NCBI GenBank assembly: GCA_902826615.1
Contig: CADEFN010000001.1
Span: 558,001-622,000 of the forward strand
From: an uncultured Gemmatimonadota bacterium
GTDB taxonomy: Bacteria; Gemmatimonadota; Gemmatimonadetes; Gemmatimonadales; Gemmatimonadaceae
Direction: 5' to 3'
DNA length: 64,000 bases
The translations under genes were made by a program, and so were the position numbers. The notes below the pieces were generated by a model, which was given only the letters and a program-made list of their open reading frames with translations, did no database searches and was not told where the DNA came from. Every line of letters starts with the position of its first letter. The first letter of the stretch is position 1. Below are positions 34,091 to 59,976 of the stretch, one piece after another.

Positions 34091-36157
34091 TCAGCTTGCC
34101 CGCCGGTCTCCAGCCGGAGTCACGACACTCTGGGTGCCGAAGCCCTCGCCCGCAGCATGCGTGGCGAACTCGACGCTGAGCACCGGCTTTGCACCGTTGG
34201 TGTGTGCGGTGGAGTCCACCGCGGGGCGGTCCCAGCGTGGTGGAGCATAGGTCGGCACCAGTTCGGTGAGCAGGGTGCGGATCACGGCATCGCTGCCGTG
34301 CTGCGCCGCGGCGTCAATGATGCGCGCAACGCCTTCTTCCGTCCCGGCGCGTACCTCGGCGTGTTTGACCCGCAGGACCTTGGGGTGCTGTGTGGCCGTG
34401 ACTTCCTCCCCGGAGAGGAACACTTCCTCGAAGAGTTTTTCACCGGGCCGTGGTCCGGTGAACTGGATTTTGACGTCGATATCCTCGCGCAGACCGGACA
34501 GCCGGATGAGATCACGCGCCAGGTCCACAATGCGCACCGGCTCGCCCATGTCGAGCACAAACACCTCACCCCCGGTGCCTAACGCGCCGGCCTGCAGCAC
34601 CAGCTGCACCGCCTCGGGAATGGTCATGAAGTAGCGGGTCATTTCCGGGTGGGTCACCTTCACCGGCCCGCCGGCACGGATCTGCCGCAGGAAGGTGGGC
34701 ACCACACTTCCGCGGCTGCCTAACACATTGCCGAAGCGGACGGCCACAAACGAGAGCCCGCTCCGCTCCGCCTCGATCTGGACCACTTGCTCCGCGATGC
34801 GTTTGGTGGCGCCCATGACGGATGTGGGTTGCACCGCCTTGTCGCTCGAGATCAGCACAAAGTGGCAGGTCCCAACGCCGGCGGCGGCACGGACCACATT
34901 CAGCGTGCCCACGACGTTGTTGGTGATCGCTTCGATGACGTTGGCTTCCATCAGCGGCACATGCTTGTGCGCCGCGGCATGAAAGACCACGTCCGGCCGG
35001 ATCCGCTCGAACACACGTCCGATGCGTTCTACGTCGCGAATGTCGGCGATCACTGGCTCAATGCACGCCTCGGGCTGGCTGTGACCCAGCTCTTCGGCAA
35101 TCTCGAAAATCGAGTTCTCACCATGTCCCAGCAGCACCAGACGCGAGGGTGCGAGCCGTGCCACCTGCCGGCAGAGCTCACTCCCGATGGAGCCCCCGGC
35201 ACCTGTCACCATGACCACGCGATTCGACACCAGCGCGCGCACGGCCTCGAGGTCGGTCTGAACCGGTGAACGGCGCAGCAGATCCTCGATCTGGATTTCG
35301 CGGAACTGCGTGACAGAGACACTCCCCGTCAGGATGTCGTGTAATGCAGGGACAGTGCGCGCCGTGATGCCGGCATCGAGTGCGGCGCGCACGACACCCC
35401 GGACGACATCGCCAGAGACGGATGGCATTGCCACCACGACTTCGCTGATCGAGTGGCTCTCGAGCACACCCGCAATGCTGGCGAGGGGGCCGAGCACCGG
35501 GATGTCATGGATCTTGTGCCCATGTTTCGTCGAGTCGTCGTCAACAAAGGCAACCGGCAGCATGCCGAGTCTTGGGCTGGCCAGCATCGAACGGACGGCA
35601 AGCTGTCCTGCTTCTCCGGCGCCCACGATCAACGCTCGACGCCCGGCGCGCGCGCTGTTGCGCTGCCGACGCCACCAGCGCAATCGCTGGGCAAAGCGCG
35701 GGACGGCAATTGCTGCTCCCACAAAAAGCGAATCGATGGCCAGCACGCCGAGGGGAATGCGTGAGGGGATCGCTCCCGTAAGGGGAAGCACCACGATTCC
35801 AATGAAGGCACTACCCAATGCAGCAAGCGCCCCGGCAACAAGGACACGCTCCATCTCCACCACGCTGGCCAGATGCCAGAGCCGTCGATACATGCCGGCC
35901 GAGTAGAAGAAGGCCAGGCGAAGCGGGATGGTGGCAAGCATGTACGCCAGCGCACTCCGACCAAACGCATCGATCCAGGAGAGCCCTTCGAATCGCAGGG
36001 TGTAGGCGAGGGTCGCCGACACCACGAGCAGCAGGGCGTCAAGCGCGAGATGCACCCGGTTGCGCGTTCGACGGAACGCGGCAAAGGGCTCGACGTGAGG
36101 CTGCTCGGGCGAGGTGGGTGTCAACACTCGAAGGAGGCGTGAAGTCCGTGTAGACAC
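34091..36157 (-). CDS. WbpM/CapD-type membrane nucleotide-sugar 4,6-dehydratase
   Basis: A 688-residue protein. Four N-terminal TM helices (about 35-150) are followed by a CoA-binding-like Rossmann domain (GAGEAG at 179-184) and the SDR catalytic domain with GAGGSIG at 319-325. The catalytic region reads SSDKAVQPTSVMGATKR, with Met448 replacing Tyr and Lys452, the mark of the WbpM/FlaA1 dehydratase group. It should convert UDP-GlcNAc to UDP-4-keto-6-deoxy-GlcNAc (QuiNAc or FucNAc-type precursors). It begins a minus-strand operon with a methyltransferase and a GT4. The start is a GTG with no clear ribosome-binding site, so the N-terminus is uncertain by some residues. Confidence 0.9.
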   Translation of the reverse strand: MSTRTSRLLRVLTPTSPEQPHVEPFAAFRRTRNRVHLALDALLLVVSATLAYTLRFEGLSWIDAFGRSALAYMLATIPLRLAFFYSAGMYRRLWHLASVVEMERVLVAGALAALGSAFIGIVVLPLTGAIPSRIPLGVLAIDSLFVGAAIAVPRFAQRLRWWRRQRNSARAGRRALIVGAGEAGQLAVRSMLASPRLGMLPVAFVDDDSTKHGHKIHDIPVLGPLASIAGVLESHSISEVVVAMPSVSGDVVRGVVRAALDAGITARTVPALHDILTGSVSVTQFREIQIEDLLRRSPVQTDLEAVRALVSNRVVMVTGAGGSIGSELCRQVARLAPSRLVLLGHGENSIFEIAEELGHSQPEACIEPVIADIRDVERIGRVFERIRPDVVFHAAAHKHVPLMEANVIEAITNNVVGTLNVVRAAAGVGTCHFVLISSDKAVQPTSVMGATKRIAEQVVQIEAERSGLSFVAVRFGNVLGSRGSVVPTFLRQIRAGGPVKVTHPEMTRYFMTIPEAVQLVLQAGALGTGGEVFVLDMGEPVRIVDLARDLIRLSGLREDIDVKIQFTGPRPGEKLFEEVFLSGEEVTATQHPKVLRVKHAEVRAGTEEGVARIIDAAAQHGSDAVIRTLLTELVPTYAPPRWDRPAVDSTAHTNGAKPVLSVEFATHAAGEGFGTQSVVTPAGDRRAS

Positions 36158-37419: not shown

Positions 37420-37522
37420 CCCGGTGGGAGTGCGGCGCAACCTACATGCGCACGGCAGCCATGGTGGGTGCGCTGCATCACGCCTGGTCGCATGAGGCAC
37501 GGTGGTCCCACCGGTACCGGCC

Positions 37523-38788
37523 ATGGCTGTGTCTGCTGAGGCTGCCCGGCCCACGGCCCTGGTGGCGCGGGGCGACGCGGCCTACTACATGCTCTCGCTT
37601 GCCGCGGTGCAGGGGTCCGCGTTTTTCATCCAACTATTGGTTGCAGCGGCCCTCCGTCCGTCGGATTTTGCCGTGGTGCGAACGGTCGAGGCGTGGCTGA
37701 GCCCGCTGCTCGTCGTCGCGGCCGCCGGACTGCCGTCGCTGGCCATGGCATGGGTACCGGCGCGCGCCGGAGGGGCCCGGGATGCCCTCGCCCGGCAGCT
37801 GCGTGGCGTGAGCCTGGTGACAGGCGCGATCACGGCCGCCCTCACGGCGGCGGCGGCACTGCTCTTCCTGCCCCCTCCAACCGGGAGGTATCTCGCGCTG
37901 GCCGCGGGGCTGCTGGCCCTTGGTGCGCTCTCTCGCACGATGACCAACCTCATGCTCGCCGCGGGACGTGTGCGAGCGACGGCCCTCGCAACAGCCGCCG
38001 TGTCGCTGGTGGCTATCCCCGTGGCCGCCTACGGGGCCCGGCACTACGGCATCACCGGGTGGATGGGCGCTCGGTACCTCAGCGAGGCGGCGCTCCTCCT
38101 GGTGGTGTTAACCGCCAGTCGCGGCGTCTTTCCGGGGACCGCCGAGGTGCGCGAGCACCCGCGCCAGATTGTGCGCGTCGGTGGGATGTTGTCGGCATCG
38201 CTGCTGGTGCGTTCGGTGGCCGACAACCTTGGCCCCATCGCGGCCGCGCGCTTCGGGTTTGGGGGCGTCGATATTGGGGCATTTGCTCTCGCGACCGTTG
38301 GGGTCGCCGCGATTCTGCTCGCGCCAGGTGCGATCGGAAATCTGGCGATCCGCCGCTTTGCGGTGACTGCCACGCAGCCGGGTGAACTCCGCGCCGCCAT
38401 TCGTCAGGGCATCCTGTTCATGCTGGTGCCGAGTGTGCTCCCGTGCGTGGTATTCGCGCTCGCGGGCGAGCTCGTGCTCCGGACGTTTTTCCCGCAATAC
38501 CAGGGCACGGCAGCCCTGATGTCGGTTGTTCTCTGGTCTGCCCCGTGCCGTGCCGTCACGGCGCTCATGGGCGGTGTGCTGGTGGCCGTGCATCGCTCGA
38601 GTGACACGCTGCGGCTCAATCTGGTTTGTCTTGCCGTGGCCGTAGCACTCCAATGGAGCCTGAGCTCCGTCTGGGGAGTGTGGGGCAGTGCCTGGGCCGT
38701 CCTGCTGACCGACATCGTGACGGTGTTGCTGTACCTGCTGGCGGTACGGTGGCGGATTGCCGGCTCTCCCGTGCCGGTCGCGCCATGA
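37523..38788 (+). CDS. wzx: Wzx-type polysaccharide flippase
   Basis: About 421 residues with 12 or so TM helices and little else, typical of MATE/MVF-fold oligosaccharide flippases. Landmarks are AAYYMLSLAAVQGSAFFIQL, LALGALSRTMTNLMLAAGRV and the central SASLLVRSVADNLG. It would move the lipid-linked repeat unit across the inner membrane. The ATG at 37523 is preferred to the GTG at 37502. It overlaps the polymerase gene by four bases, a common Wzx-Wzy arrangement. Confidence 0.82.
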   Translation: MAVSAEAARPTALVARGDAAYYMLSLAAVQGSAFFIQLLVAAALRPSDFAVVRTVEAWLSPLLVVAAAGLPSLAMAWVPARAGGARDALARQLRGVSLVTGAITAALTAAAALLFLPPPTGRYLALAAGLLALGALSRTMTNLMLAAGRVRATALATAAVSLVAIPVAAYGARHYGITGWMGARYLSEAALLLVVLTASRGVFPGTAEVREHPRQIVRVGGMLSASLLVRSVADNLGPIAAARFGFGGVDIGAFALATVGVAAILLAPGAIGNLAIRRFAVTATQPGELRAAIRQGILFMLVPSVLPCVVFALAGELVLRTFFPQYQGTAALMSVVLWSAPCRAVTALMGGVLVAVHRSSDTLRLNLVCLAVAVALQWSLSSVWGVWGSAWAVLLTDIVTVLLYLLAVRWRIAGSPVPVAP

Positions 38789-40152
38789 ACGGACTTCTCG
38801 CGCTCGTCGCGCTGGCGCTGTTGGCCATGGCCGGGCCACCGATCGTGCACGCGATGCGCCGGCGTCGGCTCGACCTGCTGTCCGCGCCCTGGATCGTGGC
38901 GGTGATGCTCATTGGGGGCTACATCCTTCCGCTTCCCGGGGTTCTCGATGGCACCGATGGCTTCTTCACACTGTTTCCCGGCCGGCTCGCGGACGAGGCG
39001 GGCGCGGTGCGGAGCGCCCTTGCCATCGCCAGCCTGGGTGCGCTCGGGTTCCATGCCGGCTATTTCCTGGTAGGGCGTGCAGGCCCTGTTCGTACAAGCC
39101 AGACGCCCGCACGCTGGAACCTGCCGATGTTGCGCTCTCTCTCGGTTGTCTACGTGGTCCTCGGCAGTGCGCTTTTTGCCGGCGCGGTGATGATCATTGG
39201 TGGGCCCGCGGCGCTCCTGTCCAGTCTGGGCGATCGCATTCGTCTGACCGCCGGCCTGAACTACCTCTTCCAGGCCGTGAACCTTCTGCTGGTGGTCGCC
39301 ATGCTCTGGTGGGTGCAGAGTCTCCTCGCGCGAACCACCCGCGGGATCATGTTCTGGTCGTTCGCGGCCGTGGCAGGCGCGGGGGTGGCACTGCAGGGGA
39401 GCAAGTCCATCCTCTTCATTGGCGTGGTGTGGGCAGCGTTGCTGTGGCACCGGCTCGAGCGGCGGATACCCAACCGGGTGATCATCACCGGGGGCGTCGT
39501 CGCCTTTCTGGTCCTCGGTGCCTATGCGCTGGTGCTGCGCGAGTACTTCGCCATTGGGCAGTTTGTCACCATCGACCCGCAGTTCGTGACACCCGAAGCA
39601 CTCTGGTTGCTCGTCAAGCGCGAACTGGGGGGCAACTTCATTCAGCTGCAGACCCTCAGTGTACTGGTCGATCGCATGCCGGCGGATCTCGACTTTCAGT
39701 ACGGCCAGACCTACCTCGCCACCCTTGCCCTGCCCGTGCCCCGAGGCCTCTGGCCGGGCAAGCCACTTCCGTCGACCGGTGTGTTCACCACCGCGTTCTG
39801 GCCCGACAGCTGGTTCGAAGCTGGCACCTCGCTCCCTCCGGGCTTCATCGGTGAGCTCTACATGAATTTCCACATCGTGGGCGTCTTCTTCGGCATGCTG
39901 GCCCTCGGAGCGCTGATCCGCCGGATTGAACGCGCCGGCTTCGGGGAGCAGCCCGCACCCCTGGCCGCCTGCCTGTCGACGCTACTGGTGGCCTGCCTCC
40001 CGCACTACATCCGGGGCGATTTTGCGGTCACGGCCATTGTCTTGATTCTCTTCCTTCCGCTCTGGGCCGCGCTCGGCCTGGTTACCAGCGCAGCGCCGAG
40101 GGCTCGAACCCCCCAGCGAGCGCCGGCGCAGACCCTCGCGCCGGGAGGGTGA
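38785..40152 (+). CDS. wzy: Wzy-type O-antigen/EPS polymerase
   Basis: A 455-residue membrane protein from the ATG at 38785, with 10-12 TM helices and a large extracytoplasmic loop (about residues 270-370: FVTIDPQFVTPEALWLL, GNFIQLQTLSV, YGQTYLATLALPVPRGLWPG). Wzy proteins share little sequence; topology, the big loop and the neighbour Wzx support the call. The PVPRGLWPGKP stretch is typical of WzyE/oligosaccharide repeat-unit polymerases. Confidence 0.8.
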   Translation: MNGLLALVALALLAMAGPPIVHAMRRRRLDLLSAPWIVAVMLIGGYILPLPGVLDGTDGFFTLFPGRLADEAGAVRSALAIASLGALGFHAGYFLVGRAGPVRTSQTPARWNLPMLRSLSVVYVVLGSALFAGAVMIIGGPAALLSSLGDRIRLTAGLNYLFQAVNLLLVVAMLWWVQSLLARTTRGIMFWSFAAVAGAGVALQGSKSILFIGVVWAALLWHRLERRIPNRVIITGGVVAFLVLGAYALVLREYFAIGQFVTIDPQFVTPEALWLLVKRELGGNFIQLQTLSVLVDRMPADLDFQYGQTYLATLALPVPRGLWPGKPLPSTGVFTTAFWPDSWFEAGTSLPPGFIGELYMNFHIVGVFFGMLALGALIRRIERAGFGEQPAPLAACLSTLLVACLPHYIRGDFAVTAIVLILFLPLWAALGLVTSAAPRARTPQRAPAQTLAPGG

Positions 40153-40294: not shown

Positions 40295-41308
40295 ATGTCG
40301 CTGAAGGGTTCTGATGTCGTTGTTACAGGTGGTGCCGGTGCCATCGGGACACGAGTCGTGGCGCGGGCGCTGGCAAGCTCAGCCAGACGGGTGGTGGTGG
40401 TCGACGATTTGTCGTCGGGATACGAGTGGCTCATTCCACGCGACCCTCGCGTGCACTTCGTTCACAACTCCGTTACGCGAATTGGGGAGCTGAACCTCGG
40501 GCCGCTTGAACAGCCGCTGGTGTTCCATCTGGCGGCCTTTTTTGCCAACCAGAACAGCGTCGATCACCCGCAGGCCGACCTGGAGACAAACGGCAAAGGG
40601 ACGCTGGCGGTGCTCGAGTGGGGCGCACGGGTGGGCGCACGGCGGGTGGTGTATGCCTCGGCCGGGTGTTCCATCGCCGGGCATGGCATCGATGCGCCGA
40701 TTCGCGAGGACATGCCGGTCTCGCTCTTCCTCGATACGCCGTACCAGATCACCAAGGCGTTAGGCGAGTTCTACTGCAACTACTACTTGAGCTCGCTGAG
40801 CACCGTGCGGTGCCGGTTTTTCAATTCGTACGGGCCGGGCGAGGTCCCGGGTGTCTACCGGAACGTGATCCCCAACTTCATCTGGCGTGCGATGCACGAT
40901 GCGCCCTTGGTGATCACGGGCACAGGCCGCGAGACGCGCGACTTTATCTTCGTCGATGATCTCGTGGAGGGGTTGGTGCGGTCCGCCGAGGTGGCAGAGG
41001 CCCACGGCCAGGCCATCAACCTCGGAACCGGGATCCAGACGCACATCGACGACCTCGCTCACATGATTATTGCCGCCACCGGATCGCGCAGCGCGATCGA
41101 GTTTGCCCCGCGCCGTACGTGGGACAAAAGTGTGCATCGCCAGGCCGACATCTCGCTCGCGCGGGAACGGCTCGGCCTCGCGCCGTCGGTGGCCATGCCC
41201 GAGGGTTTGCGGCGCACGGTGGAGTGGTTCCAGGCCCACCGCGAACAGATTGCCGCCAGTGCGGGCTCGGCCATTCCGGGTGTGCCCACGACGACGAGCG
41301 CCGCATGA
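40295..41308 (+). CDS. NAD-dependent epimerase/dehydratase (extended SDR) 1
   Basis: A 337-residue extended SDR: GGAGAIG at 12-18, a VFHLAAFFANQ NAD-site stretch at 77-86 region, and Tyr150-x3-Lys154 in DTPYQITKALGEF. SAGCSIAG at 122-129 holds the catalytic Ser. It resembles UDP-glucose 4-epimerase-like and dTDP/GDP-sugar epimerases; product unknown. The 142-base gap before it is the only larger spacer in the operon and may hold an extra promoter. Its stop overlaps the next SDR by four bases. Confidence 0.87.
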   Translation: MSLKGSDVVVTGGAGAIGTRVVARALASSARRVVVVDDLSSGYEWLIPRDPRVHFVHNSVTRIGELNLGPLEQPLVFHLAAFFANQNSVDHPQADLETNGKGTLAVLEWGARVGARRVVYASAGCSIAGHGIDAPIREDMPVSLFLDTPYQITKALGEFYCNYYLSSLSTVRCRFFNSYGPGEVPGVYRNVIPNFIWRAMHDAPLVITGTGRETRDFIFVDDLVEGLVRSAEVAEAHGQAINLGTGIQTHIDDLAHMIIAATGSRSAIEFAPRRTWDKSVHRQADISLARERLGLAPSVAMPEGLRRTVEWFQAHREQIAASAGSAIPGVPTTTSAA

Positions 41309-42354
41309 AGGTTCTTGTCACCGGTGGGGCCGGCTTTATCGGGTCGCATATTGTCGACGCGTTACGCGCGCGTCACGTGGATGTGGTGGTGGTCGACTCA
41401 CTCGATCCGGGTGTGCACCGTTTTCCGCCGGCCTACCTGCGGAAAGATGTCGACTACCAGTTTGCCGATCTGCGCTGGTGGCGTCCCGATGCGAGCGCGC
41501 TCGAGTGTACGGCCATTATCCACCTCGCGGCGTTAGGTGGTGTGTCGCGGGCGGCGGCGGAGCGCGAGAATGTGCTGGGAGCCAATGCCTGGGGCACGGC
41601 GCGGCTCACCGAAATCGCCCAGCAGATGCCGCGGCTGCGAACGGTCGTGCATGCCAGCTCGTTCAGTGTGTATGGCGCCGGCTATCGCTATCGCTGTGTG
41701 AGCTGCGGGGCCGAGCGCGATGGAACCCGCGCCGAATCGCAGCTGGCGCGCGGGGACTTCGAGGTGCGATGTGCCGCCTGTAGTGGCGTCACCCGCATCC
41801 TTCCCATCACCGAAGCCGCGCCGTGCGACCCGCTGGAGCCCTATGGAGCGTCCAAGCTGATGCAGGAGCTCTGCTGGCGTGGGTTCACACATGCGCCGAT
41901 ACACACGATGCGTTTTTCTTCGGTGTACGGGCCGCGTCTCCGCACACACGATGGCGAAGCCACCATCATAGCCAAACTCATTGGCTGGATCGATCTGGGC
42001 AGACGCCCGCAGCTTTTCGAAGATGGGCAGCAGCTGCGCGACTGGGTGCATGTCACCGACGTCGTCGACACGGCGCTGCAGCTCCTCGAAACATCGGAGC
42101 CTCCGCGGCTGGTGAACGTCTGCTCCGGGGTGCCGACGTCGCTCTTTGCTGCCTGTGAGGCAATTGCCGAGGCCCTGGGTCGCGATACGGTGCCTGAGGT
42201 GGTGGGGGGATACCGGGTGGGGGACATGCGGCATTGTCTGGGCGACGCGTCGACGATGATGGCGCTCATCGGCCGTCCTCCGGTGTCGTTAGGCGACGGG
42301 ATGCGGCGCACCCTGGCATCGGCCAGTGGGCGGCCGACGCTGACCACCGCCTGA
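41305..42354 (+). CDS. NAD-dependent epimerase/dehydratase 2 with inserted zinc ribbon
   Basis: A 349-residue extended SDR with GGAGFIG at 7-13 and Tyr180-x3-Lys184 in LEPYGASKLMQEL. Between the catalytic serine (ASSFSVYG, 118-124) and the Tyr there is an insertion with Cys131-x2-Cys134 and Cys156-x2-Cys159, a zinc-ribbon pattern of about 40 residues. Some uncharacterised nucleotide-sugar epimerases have such a ribbon near the substrate pocket. The role is unknown. It overlaps the preceding SDR by four bases, so a paired or sequential reaction is plausible. Confidence 0.85.
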   Translation: MKVLVTGGAGFIGSHIVDALRARHVDVVVVDSLDPGVHRFPPAYLRKDVDYQFADLRWWRPDASALECTAIIHLAALGGVSRAAAERENVLGANAWGTARLTEIAQQMPRLRTVVHASSFSVYGAGYRYRCVSCGAERDGTRAESQLARGDFEVRCAACSGVTRILPITEAAPCDPLEPYGASKLMQELCWRGFTHAPIHTMRFSSVYGPRLRTHDGEATIIAKLIGWIDLGRRPQLFEDGQQLRDWVHVTDVVDTALQLLETSEPPRLVNVCSGVPTSLFAACEAIAEALGRDTVPEVVGGYRVGDMRHCLGDASTMMALIGRPPVSLGDGMRRTLASASGRPTLTTA

Positions 42355-42369
42355 CGAGGACCCGGCACC

Positions 42370-44106
42370 ATGTGCGGCATCCTGGTTGTGGCTGGGGCAG
42401 ATCGTCCTGTGCATCATCGGCTGCTGGCGGCCCTGCGCCGCCGCGGGCCCGATGGCATCGGCTTCTGGTCGGACGCGGCGGTGACGATGGCGCACACCCG
42501 CCTGGCCATCCTTGGCCTCGATGAGCGCTCCGAGCAGCCGCTGGAGAACGCCACGCATGTGCTGGCCTACAACGGCGAGATCTACAACTTCCATGACGTG
42601 CATCGTCGGCATCTGGCCGCTCGTGCCGGCGCGGGGACCACGCCCTTTACCGACGGGCGCGTGCTCCTGGATCTGTGGAGTCAGAAGGGGTCGTCGATTC
42701 TCCGTGAGCTGACCGGCTTCTGGGCGTTTGTCATATACGACAAGACGCGCCGGACACTCACTCTGGTGCGTGACCAGCTCGGAGTCAAACCGCTTTACTA
42801 CTCGACCGAGGGCGGGCGGGTGGTGGTGGGCTCGACCATCCGGGCCATTCTCGACGCCGCGCCTGACCTGCGCAGCCTCGACTACGAGGCCATGTCGGAG
42901 TATGCCCGGTATCAGTTCACCTTTGGCGACAAGACCTTTCTTCGCTCGGTGAAGAAGGTGCTCCCCGGACACCTGGTGGAGATTTCGCTCGACACGGGTG
43001 CGGTGCGCACCGAGTGTTACGAGGACATCCTCGCCGCCGATTCCGAGCGCCGGGCAATCGACGACGCCTGGATCGACGAAACACGAGCCCTCGTGCAGCG
43101 GTGTGTTGAGGCGTCGACGATCAGCGATACGAGTTTCACCACGTTCTGCAGTGGCGGCATCGACTCCTCGCTGATCACTCGGCTGGCCCAGCCCGAGATC
43201 GCCTACCACGGGAATTTTTCCGACGCCGAGTGCAACGAGACCCACTTTGCGCAGGAAGTGGTGCGTGGCACCCCGATCCGCCTCTTTGTGGTGAACGCCC
43301 AGGAGGACTTCAACCTCGTGCACCGGCTGCGTGACATCGTCAACGACTTTGACGAACTCACGATCGGATCGGTGATCCTGCCCCTGGACGATGTGCTGTC
43401 GCAGGTGAAACGCCGCTACAAGGTGATTCTCACCGGCACGGGTGGCGACGAACTCTTTGCCGGGTATGTGCGGTACCAGCTGGCGTTAGGCGAGTGTTAC
43501 CAGGACTCGTATCGCGCCCTCTTTGCGCGGATGTCGCGTCTCGAGAAGCCGAGTGACCGGTTCGAGATGACCCATGCCAAGGGTGACTCGCATCTGTACA
43601 AGTTCTACGACGACAGCACGCGCACCCGCTTTGATGACGCGTACGAGGCGTGCCGCGCCGATGGCGACGAACTGACGGCGATGCTGCGATTCGACCGTCG
43701 CTACTTCCTGCAGGGGCTGCTCAATATTGACGATCGCATGGGCGGACGTCACTCCCTGGAGTCGCGGCCGTCCCTCCTGCACCAGGATCTCGTGCGTCAT
43801 CTGCAGCAGGTGGACGAACGCGCGCTTCTCGCCAATGGCACACTCAAGCCGGTGATGCGCAAGATCGGTATGGGGACGCTGCCCAAATCTGTGCTGCATC
43901 GCAGTGACAAGATGGGGTTCACCACCCCGATCGGTGCCTTCGTGAACCACTCTGCGGGACATATTCGCGAGCAGATTCTCGAATCGCGGTTCCGCGACCT
44001 GTACGACCTCAAGCGGCTGTCGTTCACGGCGGAGACCAAGTTCTCGCGTGAGGTGTTCGGCTTGCTGATGCTGGATCTCTGGCTGAACCGGTATGCCTGC
44101 ACCTGA
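42370..44106 (+). CDS. asparagine synthase-like glutamine amidotransferase
   Basis: A 578-residue AsnB-family protein. Cys2 is the N-terminal nucleophile (MCGILVV), with AHTRLAILGL and YNGEIYNF in the glutaminase domain. The synthetase domain has the PP-loop SGGIDSS at 261-267 and LTGTGGDELFAGY near 355-370. In polysaccharide clusters such proteins amidate uronic acid carboxyls (WbpS-like), so amidation of a sugar acid is more likely than asparagine supply (inference). Overlaps the next GT gene by 14 bases. Confidence 0.9.
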   Translation: MCGILVVAGADRPVHHRLLAALRRRGPDGIGFWSDAAVTMAHTRLAILGLDERSEQPLENATHVLAYNGEIYNFHDVHRRHLAARAGAGTTPFTDGRVLLDLWSQKGSSILRELTGFWAFVIYDKTRRTLTLVRDQLGVKPLYYSTEGGRVVVGSTIRAILDAAPDLRSLDYEAMSEYARYQFTFGDKTFLRSVKKVLPGHLVEISLDTGAVRTECYEDILAADSERRAIDDAWIDETRALVQRCVEASTISDTSFTTFCSGGIDSSLITRLAQPEIAYHGNFSDAECNETHFAQEVVRGTPIRLFVVNAQEDFNLVHRLRDIVNDFDELTIGSVILPLDDVLSQVKRRYKVILTGTGGDELFAGYVRYQLALGECYQDSYRALFARMSRLEKPSDRFEMTHAKGDSHLYKFYDDSTRTRFDDAYEACRADGDELTAMLRFDRRYFLQGLLNIDDRMGGRHSLESRPSLLHQDLVRHLQQVDERALLANGTLKPVMRKIGMGTLPKSVLHRSDKMGFTTPIGAFVNHSAGHIREQILESRFRDLYDLKRLSFTAETKFSREVFGLLMLDLWLNRYACT

Positions 44107-45394
44107 CGACGCCCGGCTCCAGACGCTCTTCATCACGCAATGGTTTGACCCGGAACCCGGGGCCTTGCGTGGTCTGCCACTGGCGCGCTGGCTCATGCGT
44201 CGCGGGCATGACGTCGAGGTGCTGACGGGTTTTCCGAATTATCCCGGTGGGCGTGTGTACGACGGCTACCGGCAGCAGTTCCGTCAGCGTGAGGTGATGG
44301 ATGGCGTGCCGGTGGTGCGGGTGCCGCTGTACCCCAGTCATGATCGCAACCCGCTGGCCCGGGTGGCCAACTATGCGGGATTCGCGCTGTCGGCGTCGAC
44401 CATCGGACTGGCGAGTGTGAAACGGGCCGATGTGGCCTTTGTCTATCATCCGCCGGCAACAATCGGTTTGCCTGCCGTGGTGCTGCGTGCACTGCGCGGC
44501 ACGCCGTATGTGCTGCATATCGCCGACATGTGGCCCGAGTCGGTGGTGGAGTCGGGCATGGCGGGTGGCAGCCGGGCACGGAAGTGGCTCGAGCGCGCCA
44601 TTGCCGGGTGGTGCAACGTGATCTATCGCCAGGCGTCGGCCATCACGGTGTTGTCGCCGGGCTTTCAGCGTTTGCTGGTGGAACGCGGCGTGCCCGAGGA
44701 GAAGATCCACATCGTCTACAATTGGACCGATGAGGAAATCTTCCGTCCCGTCGCCCGCGACGAGGCCCTGGCAGCCAAACTTGGTGTAGCGGGCAAGTTT
44801 GTGGTGTGTTACGCGGGTAACCTGGGGCAGTTCCAGGCCATCGACACCGTGCTGGACGCCGCCGCCCTGGTGGCCGATCAGGAGGACATCGTGGTGCTCA
44901 TTGCCGGGACGGGGCAGGCCGAGGGCGACCTGCGTGCCCGGGCCGAACGCATGGGGCTCCGCAATGTGGTGTTCACCGGGCGTCTCCCCACCAATGAAAT
45001 GCCGGCGGTGAACGCGCTGGCCGATGTGCAGCTGGTGCACCTGCGCGACCTGCCCTTCTTTGCCGCGACGGTGCCGAGCAAAACCCAGGTCGCGCTGGCA
45101 AGCGGGCGCCCGGTGCTGATGTGTGTGGCGGGTGACGCGGCCACCATTATCCAGCATGCGGGGGCGGGGCTCACGGCACCACCCGAGAACGCCGAAGCGA
45201 TGGCGGCCGCCATCCGGCAGCTGCATAACGAGAGTCCCGAGGCCCGCGCGGCCATGGGGGAGCGGGGCCGCCGGTACTATCTGGACCACATGGGGCTCGA
45301 TACCGGCGGGCACCAGATGGACCAGTTGCTGCGCCGTGTGGCCCGGGGCACTTCGGCGGTCCCCGCGCAGGGGTATCGCCCAATGAACTCGTGA
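44093..45394 (+). CDS. WbuB-like GT4 glycosyltransferase
   Basis: A 433-residue GT-B enzyme. N-terminal landmarks FITQWFDPEPGALRG and TGFPNYPGGRVYDGY are typical of WbuB/WcaI-like transferases, and HIADMWPESVVESG and VPSKTQVALASGRPVLM mark the acceptor and donor domains. These transferases often add FucNAc or a related 6-deoxy-HexNAc, which fits the WbpM and epimerase genes here. Starts inside the end of the AsnB-like gene; translational coupling likely. Confidence 0.9.
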   Translation: MPAPDDARLQTLFITQWFDPEPGALRGLPLARWLMRRGHDVEVLTGFPNYPGGRVYDGYRQQFRQREVMDGVPVVRVPLYPSHDRNPLARVANYAGFALSASTIGLASVKRADVAFVYHPPATIGLPAVVLRALRGTPYVLHIADMWPESVVESGMAGGSRARKWLERAIAGWCNVIYRQASAITVLSPGFQRLLVERGVPEEKIHIVYNWTDEEIFRPVARDEALAAKLGVAGKFVVCYAGNLGQFQAIDTVLDAAALVADQEDIVVLIAGTGQAEGDLRARAERMGLRNVVFTGRLPTNEMPAVNALADVQLVHLRDLPFFAATVPSKTQVALASGRPVLMCVAGDAATIIQHAGAGLTAPPENAEAMAAAIRQLHNESPEARAAMGERGRRYYLDHMGLDTGGHQMDQLLRRVARGTSAVPAQGYRPMNS

Positions 45395-45924
45395 GCATTC
45401 TGTTCTTCCAGGACGGAGCGGAGGCACACGGCCGGAGTCCGGCACCACCCGAAGGGTACTCGTGGACACTGTGGCGTCCCGGGCTCACCCGCGTGTGGCC
45501 TGTGCCCGATGCACCGCTGCGGTATCTCGTGTGGTGGCTGCTGCACCAGGCACGCCTGTTCGGCAATAGAGACTACGCCGTGTTTGTCATTTCGCACGGC
45601 GCGCAGGCGGTCCACCGCTCGGCGGTCTTTCCACGCTGGCTCAGGTCTCCCTTCATGGCCGCGCGCGACTTGCAAATTGGCGACACCTGGACAGCGCCCG
45701 AACATCGCGGGCGTGGGTTGGCGACTCTGGCGTTGCAGGGCATCACACACCAGATGGCGGCGCCCGCGCGAAGGTTCTGGTATCTCGTGGAGCGTGACAA
45801 CGAGGCGTCGGTGCGCGCGGTGCGACGCGCAGGGTTCACGCTCACCGGTGAAGGCGCGCGGCAACCGAGGTTTGGTATTTCCGCCCTTGGTGCCTACCGC
45901 CTCCACTCCCGAGCCGGGACCTGA
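45391..45924 (+). CDS. GNAT-family acetyltransferase, polysaccharide-associated
   Basis: A 177-residue protein from a GTG overlapping the GT by four bases. The GNAT core is WTAPEHRGRGLATLALQGI and FWYLVERDNEASVRAVRRAGF. A DegT aminotransferase is encoded nearby, so this enzyme may acylate the amino sugar formed by it (inference). The N-terminal 70 residues are unusual and Trp-rich (YSWTLWRPGLTRVWPV). Confidence 0.75.
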   Translation: MSILFFQDGAEAHGRSPAPPEGYSWTLWRPGLTRVWPVPDAPLRYLVWWLLHQARLFGNRDYAVFVISHGAQAVHRSAVFPRWLRSPFMAARDLQIGDTWTAPEHRGRGLATLALQGITHQMAAPARRFWYLVERDNEASVRAVRRAGFTLTGEGARQPRFGISALGAYRLHSRAGT

Positions 45925-45926
45925 CC

Positions 45927-46532
45927 ATGTATCCCCTGCTCAAGCGGACCTTCGACCTGATGGCGGCTACTGCCGGGCTGCTGGTGCTCGGGCTGCCCAT
46001 GCTGGTGATTGCGGCGCTGATCAAGGCTCATGATCGCGGGCCTGTGCTGTACTCGGGCAAACGCATCGGGAAGGGCGGCGCGCCGTTCAAGATGCACAAG
46101 TTCCGCACGATGGTGATGAATGCGGACAAGATCGGTGGTTCGTCGACACCCGAGGACGATCCGCGCATCACACCGACCGGAAAATTCCTCCGCCGCTACA
46201 AACTCGATGAACTGCCTCAACTCCTGAACGTGCTGTCCGGCGAGATGAGTCTCGTGGGCCCGCGTCCGCAGGTGGCCTGGGCGGTCGAGCAATACTCACC
46301 GGAAGAACGACTGGTGCTCACCGTGCCACCTGGCGTGACCGATCCCGCATCCCTTGCGTTCCACAACGAAGGGGAGATTCTTCGGGGAGCGGCCGATCCT
46401 GATCAGGCGTACATGGAGTTGATTCACCCGCACAAGATGCGCTTGAGCCTCGAATACGTTCGCACACGATCCATGCGGCAGGACATCGCCATCATCCTGA
46501 AGACCCTCGGCGCGATCGCCGGTCACCGATGA
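45927..46532 (+). CDS. initiating sugar transferase (PglC/WecP-type small PGT)
   Basis: A 201-residue monotopic phosphoglycosyl transferase. One N-terminal hydrophobic segment (residues 9-32), RIGKGGAPFKMHKFRTM (about 48-64), RRYKLDELPQLLNVLSGEMS and LVGPRPQV are the catalytic landmarks. It transfers a sugar phosphate to undecaprenyl phosphate to start each repeat unit. The long N-terminal membrane domain of WcaJ/WbaP enzymes is absent. Next gene overlaps by four bases. Confidence 0.93.
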   Translation: MYPLLKRTFDLMAATAGLLVLGLPMLVIAALIKAHDRGPVLYSGKRIGKGGAPFKMHKFRTMVMNADKIGGSSTPEDDPRITPTGKFLRRYKLDELPQLLNVLSGEMSLVGPRPQVAWAVEQYSPEERLVLTVPPGVTDPASLAFHNEGEILRGAADPDQAYMELIHPHKMRLSLEYVRTRSMRQDIAIILKTLGAIAGHR

Positions 46533-47263
46533 AGAAATTCCGCACTGAAGCCGAGCAAGCCGTGGGTCCTGCCATCGCCCGAATTTTCGAGGCGTCGGCT
46601 GACTCTACCGAAGCGAAGCTGGAAACCTTTCCGCGGTATGTGCGCCGTCAGCAGCTCAAGCGTTTTCTCGCCCTATACGAGATTTTCAAGCGGGTGCTGC
46701 CGGTGAAAGGCTCCGTGGTCGAGTGCGGAGTGTTTCGCGGATTCGGTGTGATGTCGTGGGCCAAACTCAGCGCGATGCTGGAGCCCGAAAACCTCACGCG
46801 GCGCATCTACGGGTTCGACACCTTTGACGGATTCCCGTCGTACTCCCCCGCCGACGCCAATGCCGTCGCCGCACCGGAGGTGGGAGGCCTCAAGGCCAAC
46901 TCGTACGAGGAACTGCAGCAACTCATTGCGGAGTTCGACAAGGATCGCTTTCTGGGGCACGTCGACAAGGTGCATCTGGTGAAAGGCGATCTCGCCGAAA
47001 CGGTCCCGCGCTTTGTGCAGGAGCATCCGCACCTGATGGTGAGTCTGCTCTTTCTGGATGTTGACCTGTACGAGCCGACCAAGGTGGCCATCGACCATTT
47101 CGTGCCGCGCATGCCTCGCGGTGCCGTGATTGCATTTGACGAGCTGGACAATCCCATGTGGCCGGGAGAAACGCTGGCGTTGCTCGAGACCGTTGGCATC
47201 CGCAACCTGCGTCTCGAACGGATGCCATGGGATCCCTACATCGGTTTTGCTGTCATCGAGTAA
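46529..47263 (+). CDS. TylF/MycF-type SAM-dependent O-methyltransferase
   Basis: A 244-residue methyltransferase of the TylF group, which O-methylates deoxysugars on macrolides. Landmarks are VVECGVFRGFGVMSWAKL (motif I region, 70-87), YGFDTFDGFPSY, LVKGDLAETVP and LLFLDVDLYEPTKVAID (metal-binding DVD). In a polysaccharide cluster it likely methylates a repeat-unit or capping sugar. Its product could make the sugar a chain-terminating cap (inference). Confidence 0.88.
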   Translation: MKKFRTEAEQAVGPAIARIFEASADSTEAKLETFPRYVRRQQLKRFLALYEIFKRVLPVKGSVVECGVFRGFGVMSWAKLSAMLEPENLTRRIYGFDTFDGFPSYSPADANAVAAPEVGGLKANSYEELQQLIAEFDKDRFLGHVDKVHLVKGDLAETVPRFVQEHPHLMVSLLFLDVDLYEPTKVAIDHFVPRMPRGAVIAFDELDNPMWPGETLALLETVGIRNLRLERMPWDPYIGFAVIE

Positions 47264-47296
47264 CGGCGCGTTTCTGCGCGCAGCGAGGAGAAGGTC

Positions 47297-48418
47297 ATGA
47301 CTGTCAGTGCTATCCGAACCATCCCGTTCTTCAACTACCGGGCCGCCTTTGCGGCCGACGAGGCGGAATACCTCCGGATTGTCAGTGATGTGATCCAGCG
47401 GGGGGCCTTTATCCAGCAGAAGGACCTCGCCGAGTTCGAGGCGCGGCTGGCGGCGTACGTTGGCGTGGGTCACGCGTTAGGCGTGGGCAACGCCACCGAT
47501 GGCCTGATGATGGGCTTCAAGGCGCTGGGTATTGGTCCCGGTGACGAGGTCATTGCCCCGTCACATACCATGGTGGCGACCGTGGCGGCGGCGGCGCACG
47601 CCGGAGCCACGCCGGTGCTGGTGGACATGGGGGACGACCACCTCATCGATCCCGCGGCCGTGGAAGCGGCGGTGACGTCGCGAACACGGGCCATCGTTCC
47701 CGTCCACCTGAACGGCCGCACCTGCGCCATGGGTCCCCTCCTGGCGATTGCGGCCCGGCACGGCCTGCACATCGTGGAGGATGCGGCACAGGGACTCGGC
47801 TCGTCGTGGCAGGGGAAACGCGCCGGAAGTTTCGGCGCGGTCGCTGCATTTTCGTTTTACCCCGCCAAGATCCTGGGCTGCATGGGTGACGGGGGCGCGG
47901 TGACCACATCACGTGCTGACCTCGCGCGGGTGCTCCACGTGCTGCGCGATCATGGACGGAATGAAGCAGGCGACGTGGAGACCTGGGGTTTCAACTCCCG
48001 CCTCGACAACCTGCAAGCCGCCATCCTCGACACGCAATTCAAGCGCTACGACACCATCGTCAGCAGGCGTCGCGTTATTGCCCACCGCTACAATGACCGG
48101 CTCCGCGACCTTGCTGCTCTCGTTTTGCCCGCAGCGCCCGATAGCCAGCCCGATCACTTCGATGTCTTCCAGAACTACGAGATCGAGGCCGATCGTCGTG
48201 ACGATCTCAAGGCACACCTGACAGCCCATGGCATCGGAACACTCCTGCAGTGGGGCGGCAAGGGCGTGCATCAGTTCGGAGGACTCGGCTTCAAGGTGTC
48301 ACTGCCACGCACCGAGCGTTTCTTCACGCGCTGTATCATGCTCCCCATGAACATGATGGTGAGCGATGATGATGTGGACTACATCTGCGAAGCCATTCGT
48401 GCGTTCTACGGCGAGTAA
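47297..48418 (+). CDS. DegT/DnrJ/EryC1/StrS sugar aminotransferase
   Basis: A 373-residue PLP enzyme. The N-terminus has IRTIPFFNYRAAF, followed by GVGNATDGLMMGFKALGIG and VIAPSHTMVATVAAAAHAG. The PLP lysine is K191 in FSFYPAKILGCMGDGGAV. It converts a keto-nucleotide sugar to an amino sugar, consistent with the 4-keto product of the WbpM-type dehydratase. It is followed after three bases by a split transketolase, a less common pairing. A good AGGAGAAGG ribosome-binding site precedes the ATG. Confidence 0.9.
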   Translation: MTVSAIRTIPFFNYRAAFAADEAEYLRIVSDVIQRGAFIQQKDLAEFEARLAAYVGVGHALGVGNATDGLMMGFKALGIGPGDEVIAPSHTMVATVAAAAHAGATPVLVDMGDDHLIDPAAVEAAVTSRTRAIVPVHLNGRTCAMGPLLAIAARHGLHIVEDAAQGLGSSWQGKRAGSFGAVAAFSFYPAKILGCMGDGGAVTTSRADLARVLHVLRDHGRNEAGDVETWGFNSRLDNLQAAILDTQFKRYDTIVSRRRVIAHRYNDRLRDLAALVLPAAPDSQPDHFDVFQNYEIEADRRDDLKAHLTAHGIGTLLQWGGKGVHQFGGLGFKVSLPRTERFFTRCIMLPMNMMVSDDDVDYICEAIRAFYGE

Positions 48419-48421
48419 GGA

Positions 48422-49231
48422 GTGACCACACGCGACCTCGCGCGCCGCGTGCGCCTGCACGCGCTCGACATGACCAGTCGCGGCGGCAGTTCCCATATCG
48501 GCTCCATCCTCTCGATCGCGGACATTCTCGCCATGCTCTACGGCGAAGTGCTCGCGGTCGATCCCGCCAACCCGCGCTGGCCCGAGCGCGATCGCTTTAT
48601 CCTCAGCAAGGGGCACGCGGGGGCCGGGGTCTATGCGACGCTCGCCGAGTGCGGCTTTTTCCCCACCGAACGCCTGAAGGACCACTACCAGGATGGATCC
48701 GACCTCAGCGGGCATGTTTCCCACAAGGGCATTCCCGGTGTCGAGGTCTCGACCGGATCGTTAGGCCATGGGTTGTCCATTGCGGCTGGCATGGCGTACG
48801 CCGGGATGCTGGCCGGAAAGTCGCATCGGGTGGTTTGCCTGCTCAGTGATGGCGAGTGCGACGAGGGCTCCAACTGGGAAGCCATTCTCTTTGCCGCGCA
48901 CCACAAACTCGGCAACCTCACGGCCATCATCGACTACAACAAGATTCAGAGCCTGACGACGGTTGCCGACACGATTGCACTCGAACCCTTCGCTGACAAA
49001 TGGCGTGCCTTTGGCTGGCGCGTGCTGGAGACCGATGGCCACGACCACGACAGGCTACGTACCGCCCTGGGCGATGAAGCGCGGGTGGGTGAAGCCCCAA
49101 CCTGTGTGATTGCCCACACCACCAAGGGAAAGGGTGTGTCGTTCATGGAGTCGTCGGTGTTGTGGCACTACCGCACCGCAAAAGGCGAGGAGTTCGAGGC
49201 GGCAAAACGTGAACTGCAGGGTGACGCATGA
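48422..49231 (+). CDS. transketolase N-terminal subunit
   Basis: A 269-residue split transketolase subunit from a GTG at 48422. The thiamine-diphosphate half has GGSSHIGSILSIADIL, FILSKGHAGAGVYATL, TGSLGHGLSIAAGMA and the cofactor motif LSDGECDEGSNWEA... with DYNK (about 138-178). It pairs with the C-terminal subunit gene, which overlaps it by four bases. Split transketolases in secondary or polysaccharide clusters usually make an unusual keto sugar rather than serve the pentose phosphate pathway (inference). Confidence 0.9.
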   Translation: MTTRDLARRVRLHALDMTSRGGSSHIGSILSIADILAMLYGEVLAVDPANPRWPERDRFILSKGHAGAGVYATLAECGFFPTERLKDHYQDGSDLSGHVSHKGIPGVEVSTGSLGHGLSIAAGMAYAGMLAGKSHRVVCLLSDGECDEGSNWEAILFAAHHKLGNLTAIIDYNKIQSLTTVADTIALEPFADKWRAFGWRVLETDGHDHDRLRTALGDEARVGEAPTCVIAHTTKGKGVSFMESSVLWHYRTAKGEEFEAAKRELQGDA

Positions 49232-50151
49232 GAGACGCCTTTGTCGCGCGGCTCACGGCGCTCGCCGAAGATGACCCGCGCCTCATGCTCATCACCGGCG
49301 ACCTGGGCTTTGGCGTACTCACGAAGTTCGCCGAACGTTTCCCGCGGCAGTTTATCAACGCCGGGGTGGCCGAACAGAACATGATGGGACTCGCCACCGG
49401 GCTGGCCATGGAAGGGCATGTGGTCTTCACGTACTCCATCGCCAACTTCGGCACCTTGCGCTGCCTGGAGCAGATCCGCAACGACGCGGCCTACCACGAC
49501 GCGAATGTGAAGGTGGTCGCGGTTGGTGGTGGGTTCAGCTACGGGGCGCTAGGCATTTCACACCACGCCACGGAAGACCTGGCCATTCTGCGGGCGCTCC
49601 CGGCCATGACTGTGGTAGCCCCCGGTGACGACTGGGAGGCTGCCGAGGCGACGGAAGCGCTGGTGAACACGCCGGGCACAGCCTACCTGCGACTCGATCG
49701 CAGCTCGATGGATCGCGCGCCTGAACAGGGAGAGCGGTTCGCGCTTGGTGCCTCCCGCAGGGTAAAGGAGGGTGCAGCCGCGACGATCATTTCCACGGGC
49801 GGTATGCTCGGTGAAGCGCTCGCCGCCCATGAGACGCTCGCGTCGGAGGGTCTGCTGACCCGGGTGCTGAGCCTTCACACGCTTTCGCCTATCGACAGTC
49901 CGGCCGTCATCGACGCCTGCCGCACCACCGGCGGCCTTGTGACGGTGGAGGAACACTCGGTAGTCGGAGGACTCGGCAGTGCCGTCGCCGAGGTGTGCGC
50001 CGACGCCGAGGTGTTTCCGAGGGCCTTCAAACGCATCGGGCTCCGGGCCGGCTTCTCGTCAATTGTGGGGGGACAGCAGTATCTTCGCACACGCTACGGC
50101 ATAGACGCTGCGGCAATTGTAGCGGCGGTGCGCTCGATTGCCGGCGCGTAG
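49228..50151 (+). CDS. transketolase C-terminal subunit
   Basis: A 307-residue partner of the preceding gene. It has the pyrimidine-binding domain with the ThDP glutamate in FINAGVAEQNMMGLATGLA (about residues 45-63), GFSYGALGISHHATEDLAIL and a C-terminal regulatory-type domain (TVEEHSVVGGLGSAVAEV). Both subunits are needed for a functional two-carbon transfer enzyme. Confidence 0.9.
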   Translation: MRDAFVARLTALAEDDPRLMLITGDLGFGVLTKFAERFPRQFINAGVAEQNMMGLATGLAMEGHVVFTYSIANFGTLRCLEQIRNDAAYHDANVKVVAVGGGFSYGALGISHHATEDLAILRALPAMTVVAPGDDWEAAEATEALVNTPGTAYLRLDRSSMDRAPEQGERFALGASRRVKEGAAATIISTGGMLGEALAAHETLASEGLLTRVLSLHTLSPIDSPAVIDACRTTGGLVTVEEHSVVGGLGSAVAEVCADAEVFPRAFKRIGLRAGFSSIVGGQQYLRTRYGIDAAAIVAAVRSIAGA

Positions 50152-50181: not shown

Positions 50182-51285
50182 ATGACACTCCCGGACCGCG
50201 GCGCGGCCCATACCACATGGCAGGACGAGCCACCACTCAGTGTGCTCGGCACGATGTTGTTCCTGCTGCGGTATCGGCGAACGATCCTGCTGACGGGACT
50301 TTCGGCGGTCGCGGTGATGGTGGCGGTAACACTGTCCCGGCCCCGGACGTGGACCACGCGCGCCTCGTTTGCGCCGCAGGCTGGTGCCAAATCGCAGTCG
50401 CTGTCGGGGCTCGCCGCGCAGCTGGGGGTGAGTGTTCCGGGGAGCGAGGCAGCGCAGTCACCGGCGTTTTATGTGGACGTGCTCCGCTCGCGCGAGCTCC
50501 TGGCCGAAGTGGCCTACAAGCCGTACACAGTTGGTGGCGCCGAGCCGGCGCGCACCACGTATGTCGAGCTGGTGAAGGCCAGGGGCAACGATTCAGCGCA
50601 GCGGCGCGACGACGCGATTGGCAAGCTGCTCAAGCAGGTGTCGGCCAGCGTGACGCAGAAGACGGGTGTGGTGAACATGGCGGTCCGCACCAACTCCCCC
50701 GAACTCTCGCTGCAGCTCTCCGATCAGCTGCTGGCGGCGCTCAACCGCTTCAACCTCGAGCGGCGCCGGTCACAGGCCTCGGAGGAACGGCGTTTTACGC
50801 AGACACGGCTGGACGAACTGCGCGGCGAACTGCGTGAAGCGGAAAATCGTCTGCAGTTCTTTCTGCAGCGCAACCGCGACTTCCGCAATTCTCCGGAGCT
50901 CACGTTTCAGCATGATCGATTGACGCGGGATGTCCGGCTGCGGGAGCAGGTCTACAGCTCTCTTGCGCAGAGCTTTGAGCAGGCGCGCATTGACGAGGTG
51001 CGCGATACGCCAGTGATCACCGTGGTGGAGAAGCCCGACCTGGCGGTTCGCCCTGATGGGCGGCAGCTGGTGGCGCGTGGTCTCGCGGCGCTGATTGCCG
51101 GTCTGGTGATTGGGACGCTGCTGGCGCTCTGGCGCAGTCGGTTGCGCGGTGACGCCGACGCGAGCACGGACGAGGCAGCGGAGTATGCGCGGCTACGACG
51201 GGAGTTCTGGCGGGACCTTCGGGCACCCTGGCGGCTCTTCCTGCGAGAAGCACGGGAGGCACGGGAGGCACGCGAAGCACGTTAG
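50182..51285 (+). CDS. Wzz/GNVR-type polysaccharide co-polymerase without kinase domain
   Basis: A 367-residue inner-membrane protein. TM1 (about 37-52) and TM2 (about 295-315, GLAALIAGLVIGTLLALW) frame a periplasmic coiled-coil domain with the GNVR-like part and DLAVRPDGRQLVARG, the Pro/Gly-rich region before TM2. It should control chain length with Wzy. No tyrosine-kinase domain follows TM2. The cytoplasmic tail ends in four EAR tripeptides encoded by a 9-base tandem repeat, with the stop codon in the fifth unit. Confidence 0.85.
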   Translation: MTLPDRGAAHTTWQDEPPLSVLGTMLFLLRYRRTILLTGLSAVAVMVAVTLSRPRTWTTRASFAPQAGAKSQSLSGLAAQLGVSVPGSEAAQSPAFYVDVLRSRELLAEVAYKPYTVGGAEPARTTYVELVKARGNDSAQRRDDAIGKLLKQVSASVTQKTGVVNMAVRTNSPELSLQLSDQLLAALNRFNLERRRSQASEERRFTQTRLDELRGELREAENRLQFFLQRNRDFRNSPELTFQHDRLTRDVRLREQVYSSLAQSFEQARIDEVRDTPVITVVEKPDLAVRPDGRQLVARGLAALIAGLVIGTLLALWRSRLRGDADASTDEAAEYARLRREFWRDLRAPWRLFLREAREAREAREAR

Positions 51286-59859: not shown

Positions 59860-59976
59860 CTCAAGCGAGACTCCTCTCACCAAAGACACCAACGAATCAA
59901 AAAGGTAATCCCACACCCGCAGCTGATGCGTCGTGTGTGCCGCATTACAAATCGGCTGCTCTCTCCATGAGGTCCG

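Follow-up and report, generated by a model that had tools for sequence, protein, structure and literature searches.

A conserved cassette of split transketolase and DegT aminotransferase, a candidate source of carbon-extended amino sugars in bacterial polysaccharide clusters

A 64,000-nucleotide stretch of the genome of an uncultured Gemmatimonadota bacterium (assembly GCA_902826615.1, contig CADEFN010000001.1, positions 558,001 to 622,000; hereafter the window) contains, at 46529-50151 within a polysaccharide cluster, genes for a TylF-type methyltransferase, a DegT aminotransferase and the N- and C-terminal halves of a split transketolase (TK-N and TK-C). The best explanation of the whole, to which we give roughly even chances, is that the product of this four-gene cassette is an amino sugar with an extended carbon chain, built at the level of the nucleotide-sugar. 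In the proposed route, the split transketolase (TK) with thiamine diphosphate (ThDP) would take a two-carbon hydroxyacetyl (ketol) unit from hydroxypyruvate or a ketose phosphate and attach it to a carbonyl group of a keto nucleotide-sugar. The acceptor would most likely be the C4 ketone produced by a PglF-type 4,6-dehydratase, yielding a C2-branched sugar with a side-chain ketone, which the dedicated DegT would aminate; a GNAT enzyme would acylate the amine, the TylF/CalS11-like enzyme would O-methylate the sugar, and a small phosphoglycosyl transferase would put it on undecaprenyl phosphate, where the repeat unit begins. Nucleotide-sugars serve as substrates for DegT enzymes, CalS11-like enzymes and phosphoglycosyl transferases. 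It is fairly probable that a nucleotide-sugar acquires a ketone through the TK and that DegT then aminates this ketone; the C4-branch of UDP-N-acetylhexosamine (UDP-HexNAc) in particular is a tentative choice.

The cassette genes lie on the + strand with junctions of +33, +3 and -4 bases in order, so that DegT and TK-N are separated by 3 bases and the TK halves overlap by 4; the start of the TylF gene likewise overlaps the end of the upstream Bac_transf gene by 4 bases. The identities given to these genes in an earlier reading of the DNA alone (the sequence-only reading) were confirmed by Pfam and by solved relatives, as were the 3-base and overlapping junctions by the coordinates. The first protein (46529..47263) matches PF05711 with 48.5 bits (cut-off 23), which places it among TylF/CalS11 O-methyltransferases, and its best solved relative is CalS11, a TDP-rhamnose 3'-O-methyltransferase (E 1.5e-43). 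It is followed by the DegT aminotransferase of a TK-linked subfamily (47297..48418; PF01041, 330 bits), by TK-N, the ThDP/Mg domain (48422..49231; PF00456, 152 bits), with 6yak, the N-chain of a split TK, as its best solved relative (E 4.8e-75), and by TK-C (49228..50151; PF02779 and PF02780), for which the best is 6yaj (E 7.9e-59).

One line of evidence comes from the active site of the transketolase, described here in E. coli TktA numbering. TK-N of the window retains H26, H66, H100, G114, D155, N185 and H261, and E411, F437 and H473 are also present, as expected for a member of the transketolase (ThDP) superfamily. In an alignment with the related enzymes of the module described below (85 N-half and 84 C-half rows, 83 and 82 of them distinct), the ThDP/Mg and catalytic residues are near-invariant. 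The acceptor-phosphate pocket of pentose-phosphate transketolases, formed by S385, H461, D469 and R91, is not present in the window, which has G, G, L and Y at these positions, together with the changes F434I and L466Y. The changes are nearly uniform in the module: H461 is replaced by G and L466 by Y in 84/84 rows, F434 by I in 83/83 and I189 by S in 79/85; D469 is gone in all 83 readable rows (L in 76, V in 5, F and Q in one each), S385 in 80/83 and R91 in at least 84/85. According to PMC5073344, S385 of TktA is in contact with the phosphate of the substrate and D469 forms a pair with R91, and the variant S385Y/D469T/R520Q shifts the enzyme from phosphorylated to aromatic aldehydes. The module TK has lost the sugar-phosphate acceptor pocket but retains the cofactor and catalytic residues. 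An AlphaFold2 model of TK-C (predicted local distance difference test, pLDDT, 88.3) had 6yaj as its best Foldseek match (TM 0.88-0.90); the rebuilt loop (within residues 102-112) had pLDDT < 50, and pocket geometry was therefore left out of the argument.

Other split TKs of the phylum are mostly canonical, with H461 in 14/20, D469 in 15/20, S385 in 17/20 and R91 in 14/21. The I-G-Y pattern (positions 434, 461 and 466) was found in three of the 20 (L041, L043 and L053), whose neighbours, inspected by eye, are a DegT gene, an SDR gene with a polysaccharide ABC ATPase, and SDR, methyltransferase and GT2 genes, respectively. It also occurs in two of five plasmid TKs, from Methylovirgula and Azospirillum, the latter with SDR, aldo-keto reductase (AKR), TylF and glycosyltransferase genes nearby. 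The TK of a Deinococcus plasmid lacks I-G-Y and adjoins sugar kinase and sugar ABC genes. A further split-TK subfamily (L143, L144 and L044) has an A-S-Y pocket; as its Deinococcus member lies beside a sugar kinase and an ABC transporter, this subfamily is probably catabolic with a non-standard substrate.

The best phmmer match of the cassette aminotransferase is DesV (E 7e-80), and its AlphaFold2 model (pLDDT 93.7) has 7b0d and DesV as best Foldseek matches; it shares with DesV, QdtB and WbpE the fold and the pyridoxal phosphate (PLP) core, the PLP lysine K191 being invariant in 23 rows. The LYG and HYP motifs of these three enzymes, which on our own reading belong to the substrate region, are replaced in the cassette DegT by L-N-G-R and Q-W-G-G. 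Among the 67 DegT open reading frames of the main cluster, 41 have QWG(G), 4 have HYP (in L136, L140, L135 and L125, none of them directly preceding a TK) and 22 have neither, including TK-linked DegTs of a second type and six variants adjoining TK. The second type is accompanied by a class I aminotransferase in eight loci (L081, L084, L090, L092, L094, L117, L123 and L125). Fic25, solved with an adduct of diaminodihydroxyheptanoic acid (DADH) according to the title of 8gyj, is among the 50 best fold matches. As far as these comparisons go, DegT is dedicated to the TK module.

A scan of 298 genomes of the phylum with TK-N (E <= 1e-60) gave matches in 25 genomes at 26 places. The order TylF-DegT-TKN-TKC is kept at five of them, the window and four other genomes (L036-L039), whose cassettes are 63-75% identical to that of the window (TylF, 66-76%); as the four genes recur in order in four other genomes, the cassette is not a chance assembly. 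The other 21 places, used as a contrast set, have a DegT at one (36%) and, at E <= 1e-12, no homologue of TylF or of the phosphoglycosyl transferase. The block of four genes is conserved amid variable surroundings.

A wider, one-genome-per-species scan revealed at least 553 relatives, and the best 80 were taken, from Planctomycetota, Acidobacteriota, Armatimonadota, Pseudomonadota, Myxococcota, Bdellovibrionota, Bacteroidota, Nitrospirota, Verrucomicrobiota and others. After removal of duplicates and addition of the window and two phylum loci, 83 module loci remained. TK-C lies near TK-N in 82 of these, a TylF-like gene was found in 43, and a phosphoglycosyl transferase within -4.0/+4.5 kb of TK in 60. 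DegT alone is present in 60 loci, AKR alone in 9, both in 2 and neither in 12; for the 54 loci that extend 3 kb or more to each side, the respective numbers are 43, 4, 2 and 5 (DegT against AKR, Fisher p 0.005). In 48 loci, DegT is found no more than 1 kb upstream of TK-N; the distance is at most 150 bases in 34, and TylF alone stands between the two in 5. Plasmids searched with the cassette DegT gave no match at E <= 1e-70. In a Methylocystis locus (L131), TK-N and TK-C are 62% and 59% identical to those of the window, and no DegT, AKR or polysaccharide-looking gene was found within about 5 kb.

DegT and AKR replace each other repeatedly beside the same transketolase. On a tree from the concatenated TK halves (107 rows), 8 changes are required for AKR versus DegT, and as many for the AKR label alone (shuffle mean 9.8), 7 of the latter being forced by well-supported branches. 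The exchange is best seen in the sister loci L103 and L099, which have in common WecB (73%), GT4 (61%), TK-N (88%), TK-C (86%) and four more upstream genes (36-70%): L103 has GNAT and DegT genes, neither with a counterpart in L099, at the point of the AKR of L099. That the same TK feeds an aminotransferase or a reductase fits a ketone as the TK product; with AKR in the place of DegT, the same ketone would become an alcohol. Genes that could modify the amine occur together with DegT. GNAT genes (of two clusters) were found in 16 of the 60 DegT loci, an S-adenosylmethionine methyltransferase (MT7) in 22, neither in 22 and both together in none (p 1.5e-4), and one or the other in 38/60 DegT loci vs 0/11 AKR loci (p 7.6e-5), these Fisher tests ignoring kinship; in the loci with neither DegT nor AKR, MT7 occurs in 1/12. 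The cluster to which the window GNAT belongs directly precedes DegT in L103, L106 and other loci. Methylation of the amine by MT7 is a guess.

Like the sequence-only reading, we infer an amino sugar with an altered chain or a branch and with a methyl or acyl group, now with four lines of support: exactly this four-gene block is conserved, the TK acceptor pocket is lost with the cofactor residues kept, DegT is repeatedly exchanged for a reductase beside the same TK, and acyltransferase and methyltransferase genes are tied to DegT and absent with AKR. A wider claim, which we hold at a little less than even chances, is that of a phylum-spanning, horizontally moved pathway, in which split TKs with a rebuilt pocket would branch keto nucleotide-sugars by a two-carbon ketol unit and a swappable DegT or AKR would set an amine or an alcohol on the branch.

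Several points weigh against this interpretation. First, we infer the substrate, the donor, the branch position and the product of the cassette. Second, R358 is retained in 80/83 rows, the other 3 having K, and either K or R occupies position 520, so that the ability to bind phosphate, perhaps that of the donor, may not be wholly lost. Third, a PglF homologue lies near TK in 26/83 loci and anywhere in the fetched locus in 35/83, so that a UDP-4-keto acceptor is not universally in reach. Fourth, 5 of the 54 well-flanked loci have no DegT or AKR nearby, and the module-type TK of Methylocystis lies among genes that are not polysaccharide-like. Finally, the 80 loci were picked as best matches to the cassette TK and hence are no random sample, and on the tree the gene-exchange associations come down to 6 independent pairs each, none contrary (median p 0.125).

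An unlikely alternative is chain extension, in which the C2 unit transferred by the TK is accepted by an aldehyde, either a dialdo-nucleotide-sugar or another carrier-bound compound, and DegT aminates the product, as for DADH of azinomycin and ficellomycin. Aldehydes are the usual acceptors of TKs, and a split TK with an aminotransferase acting on an aldehyde is reported for azinomycin (PMC9570651). Moreover, a plasmid of Streptomyces sp. CL7 has adjacent DegT, TK-N and TK-C genes (L146, 6655-9808) within a cluster of LysW, ArgB, ArgC and nonribosomal peptide synthetase (NRPS) genes, probably a DADH-type natural-product pathway. However, the CL7 enzyme retains H461 and lacks the I-G-Y pocket, none of the genes beside the module was recognised as forming a sugar aldehyde, and the position of an I-G-Y TK next to rfbFGH (see below) implies a ketone.

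It is no more probable that the ring 4-ketone formed by PglF is the substrate of DegT (or AKR), giving, with GNAT and the phosphoglycosyl transferase, a starter similar to bacillosamine or N-acetylquinovosamine (QuiNAc), while the TK makes another residue. Genes similar to those of PglF and PglC are present together with aminotransferase and acyltransferase genes, and a DegT/AKR exchange also fits amination versus reduction of a ring ketone, but the two enzymes that would mark the bacillosamine (PglF/E/D/C) pathway were not found: the acyltransferase is a GNAT protein and not of the PglD type, and DegT is far from 1o61/4ztc, which we take to be PglE (E about 1e-21, vs 7e-80 for DesV). DegT also lacks the LYG/HYP motifs kept by some unlinked DegTs of the same loci, and, in the 48 loci where it is found up to 1 kb upstream of TK-N, is no more than 150 bases away in 34.

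That the TK halves are ordinary pentose-phosphate enzymes supplying erythrose 4-phosphate (E4P) or heptose precursors to the cluster, with which the retained R358 and R/K520 would agree, is very improbable, as the module has other residues throughout in the acceptor pocket, the TK is linked to the DegT/AKR exchange, and a canonical full-length TK is encoded elsewhere in the genome. The sequence-only reading had named the absence of another TK as a sign of housekeeping genes; the check found the opposite. The 5.9-Mb genome has 8 matches to PF02779, and the full-length TK lies on the same contig as the window at about 688.6-690.1 kb (765-codon frame, 35% identity to the cassette TK-N) with the TktA residue at all sites checked. 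The split pair is therefore not the only TK of the genome, and a housekeeping role for it was rejected.

The surroundings of the cassette are those of a polysaccharide cluster with export genes on its flanks. Immediately upstream, all on the + strand, are a GT4 glycosyltransferase (44093..45394; PF13579, PF13692), a GNAT acyltransferase (45391..45924; PF00583, 32.7 bits), probably the N-acyltransferase for the DegT product, and the small PglC-like phosphoglycosyl transferase (Bac_transf, 45927..46532; PF02397, 186 bits), which likely loads the sugar onto undecaprenyl phosphate. A PglF/WbpM-type UDP-HexNAc 4,6-dehydratase (34091..36157, - strand; PF02719, 385.7 bits; 176 bits against the PseB model, under its cut-off of 407.75) is a candidate source of the 4-keto acceptor. 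On the + strand there are also two SDR (epimerase/dehydratase) genes (40295..42354; PF01370) and an asparagine-synthase-like amidotransferase (42370..44106; TIGR01536, 296.1 bits, cut-off 267.1), through which a uronic acid of the repeat is perhaps amidated. Of the two proteins after which the sequence-only reading named the Wzx/Wzy cluster, the proposed Wzx (37502-38788) had no Pfam match, so that its name is a guess from appearance, and the Wzy-like polymerase (38785..40152, + strand) has 26.2 bits to PF14296, just below the cut-off of 26.6. Downstream on the + strand is a Wzz/Wzc-like chain-length protein (50182..51285; PF13807, 24.6 bits, below cut-off; BexC/CtrB/KpsE model, E 4.6e-8). Other neighbours include Poly_export/SLBB and, downstream of the cluster, a Wzi capsule assembly protein (58246-59916, - strand; PF14052, E 5.5e-29). 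Adjoining a polysaccharide export gene, a 204-residue protein (54028-54642, - strand) without a Pfam match has a signal-like start and a C-terminal PEP-V-transmembrane-RRR tail, which we take to resemble a PEP-CTERM sorting signal.

According to a 2025 review (PMC12247030), use of a ketone acceptor has not been demonstrated in vitro for any TK, and the 13 candidates proposed until then all come from Streptomycetes. The module offers a large candidate set for such enzymes in many phyla, with the acceptor class and product predicted by gene context, and the natural DegT/AKR swap pairs (e.g., L103 and L099) make the order of reactions testable. If the interpretation is true, the module would do with a transketolase what YerE does, and an entire class of branched octoses not yet seen would be expected in the surface glycans of bacteria: many environmental bacteria would be coated in branched C8-type sugars missed by routine sugar analysis, and the split TKs would be new C-C bond-forming biocatalysts for tertiary alcohols. 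Searches of the open-access PMC literature turned up no paper recognised as proposing this pathway for a polysaccharide.

Aminoshikimate formation, offered as a precedent by the sequence-only reading, is better replaced by the TK and aminotransferase pairs of the azinomycin/ficellomycin type and by sugar branching of the YerE type; no 3-amino-5-hydroxybenzoate (AHBA) synthase or aminodehydroquinate (aminoDHQ)-type gene was recognised among the scanned window genes, the aminoshikimate reading being only briefly considered. In azinomycin DADH formation a split TK acts first and an aminotransferase second: the split TK adds two carbons and the aminotransferase aminates the ketone (AziC5/C6 with AziC1/C7; PMC9570651). 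Fic25 of ficellomycin belongs to a DADH pathway of this kind (title of 8gyj). The cassette shares with them the split TK adjoining an aminotransferase, which in ficellomycin is also of the DegT type. In contrast to the cassette, these pathways have an amino-acid aldehyde as acceptor, LysW/ArgB/ArgC-type partners and no polysaccharide genes; no ArgB, ArgC, LysW or N-acetylglutamate genes of the DADH type were found among the genes scanned at 34-60 kb of the window. The split TK of Carboxydothermus (6yaj/6yak) has the same two-chain architecture but, in our alignment, retains the equivalents of H461 and D469.

The gene set itself, which the sequence-only reading knew from no defined polysaccharide pathway, is already in print for Actinoplanes missouriensis: the wps-2 cluster contains methyltransferase, TK-N, TK-C, DegT and phosphoglycosyl transferase genes in a Wzx/Wzy cluster, given in PMC13390465 as domains only, and no proposed sugar was found there; its deletion left sporangia normal (PMC13390465). 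A C4-branched 6-deoxy-HexNAc occurs in nature as shewanellose, which has a three-carbon branch (PMC4052302); no account of the biosynthesis of this branch was found. In miharamycin and amipurimycin a split TK is likewise proposed to transfer hydroxyacetyl to a keto sugar, but these are Streptomyces antibiotics for which activity in vitro was never shown, and no module of DegT/AKR with a phosphoglycosyl transferase is described for them in section 2.3 of the review (PMC12247030).

A functional parallel is YerE/ErwE, a ThDP enzyme that branches a keto nucleotide-sugar for a surface polysaccharide (PMC12247030). YerE belongs to the decarboxylase superfamily and uses 2-keto acids, whereas the cassette protein is a split TK with TK-type Pfam domains, from which transfer of a ketol unit is expected. 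The products of rfbF, rfbG and rfbH make CDP-4-keto-3,6-dideoxyglucose, and a Methylovirgula plasmid carries the order rfbF-rfbG-oxidoreductase-rfbH-TK-N-TK-C, the TK having the same I-G-Y pocket as the module; no YerE-like gene is annotated in this stretch. CDP-4-keto-3,6-dideoxyglucose is the substrate of YerE (PMC12247030). The Methylovirgula split TK sits at the place expected for YerE, a context that implies a ketone acceptor. The TK of the cassette may work as YerE does.

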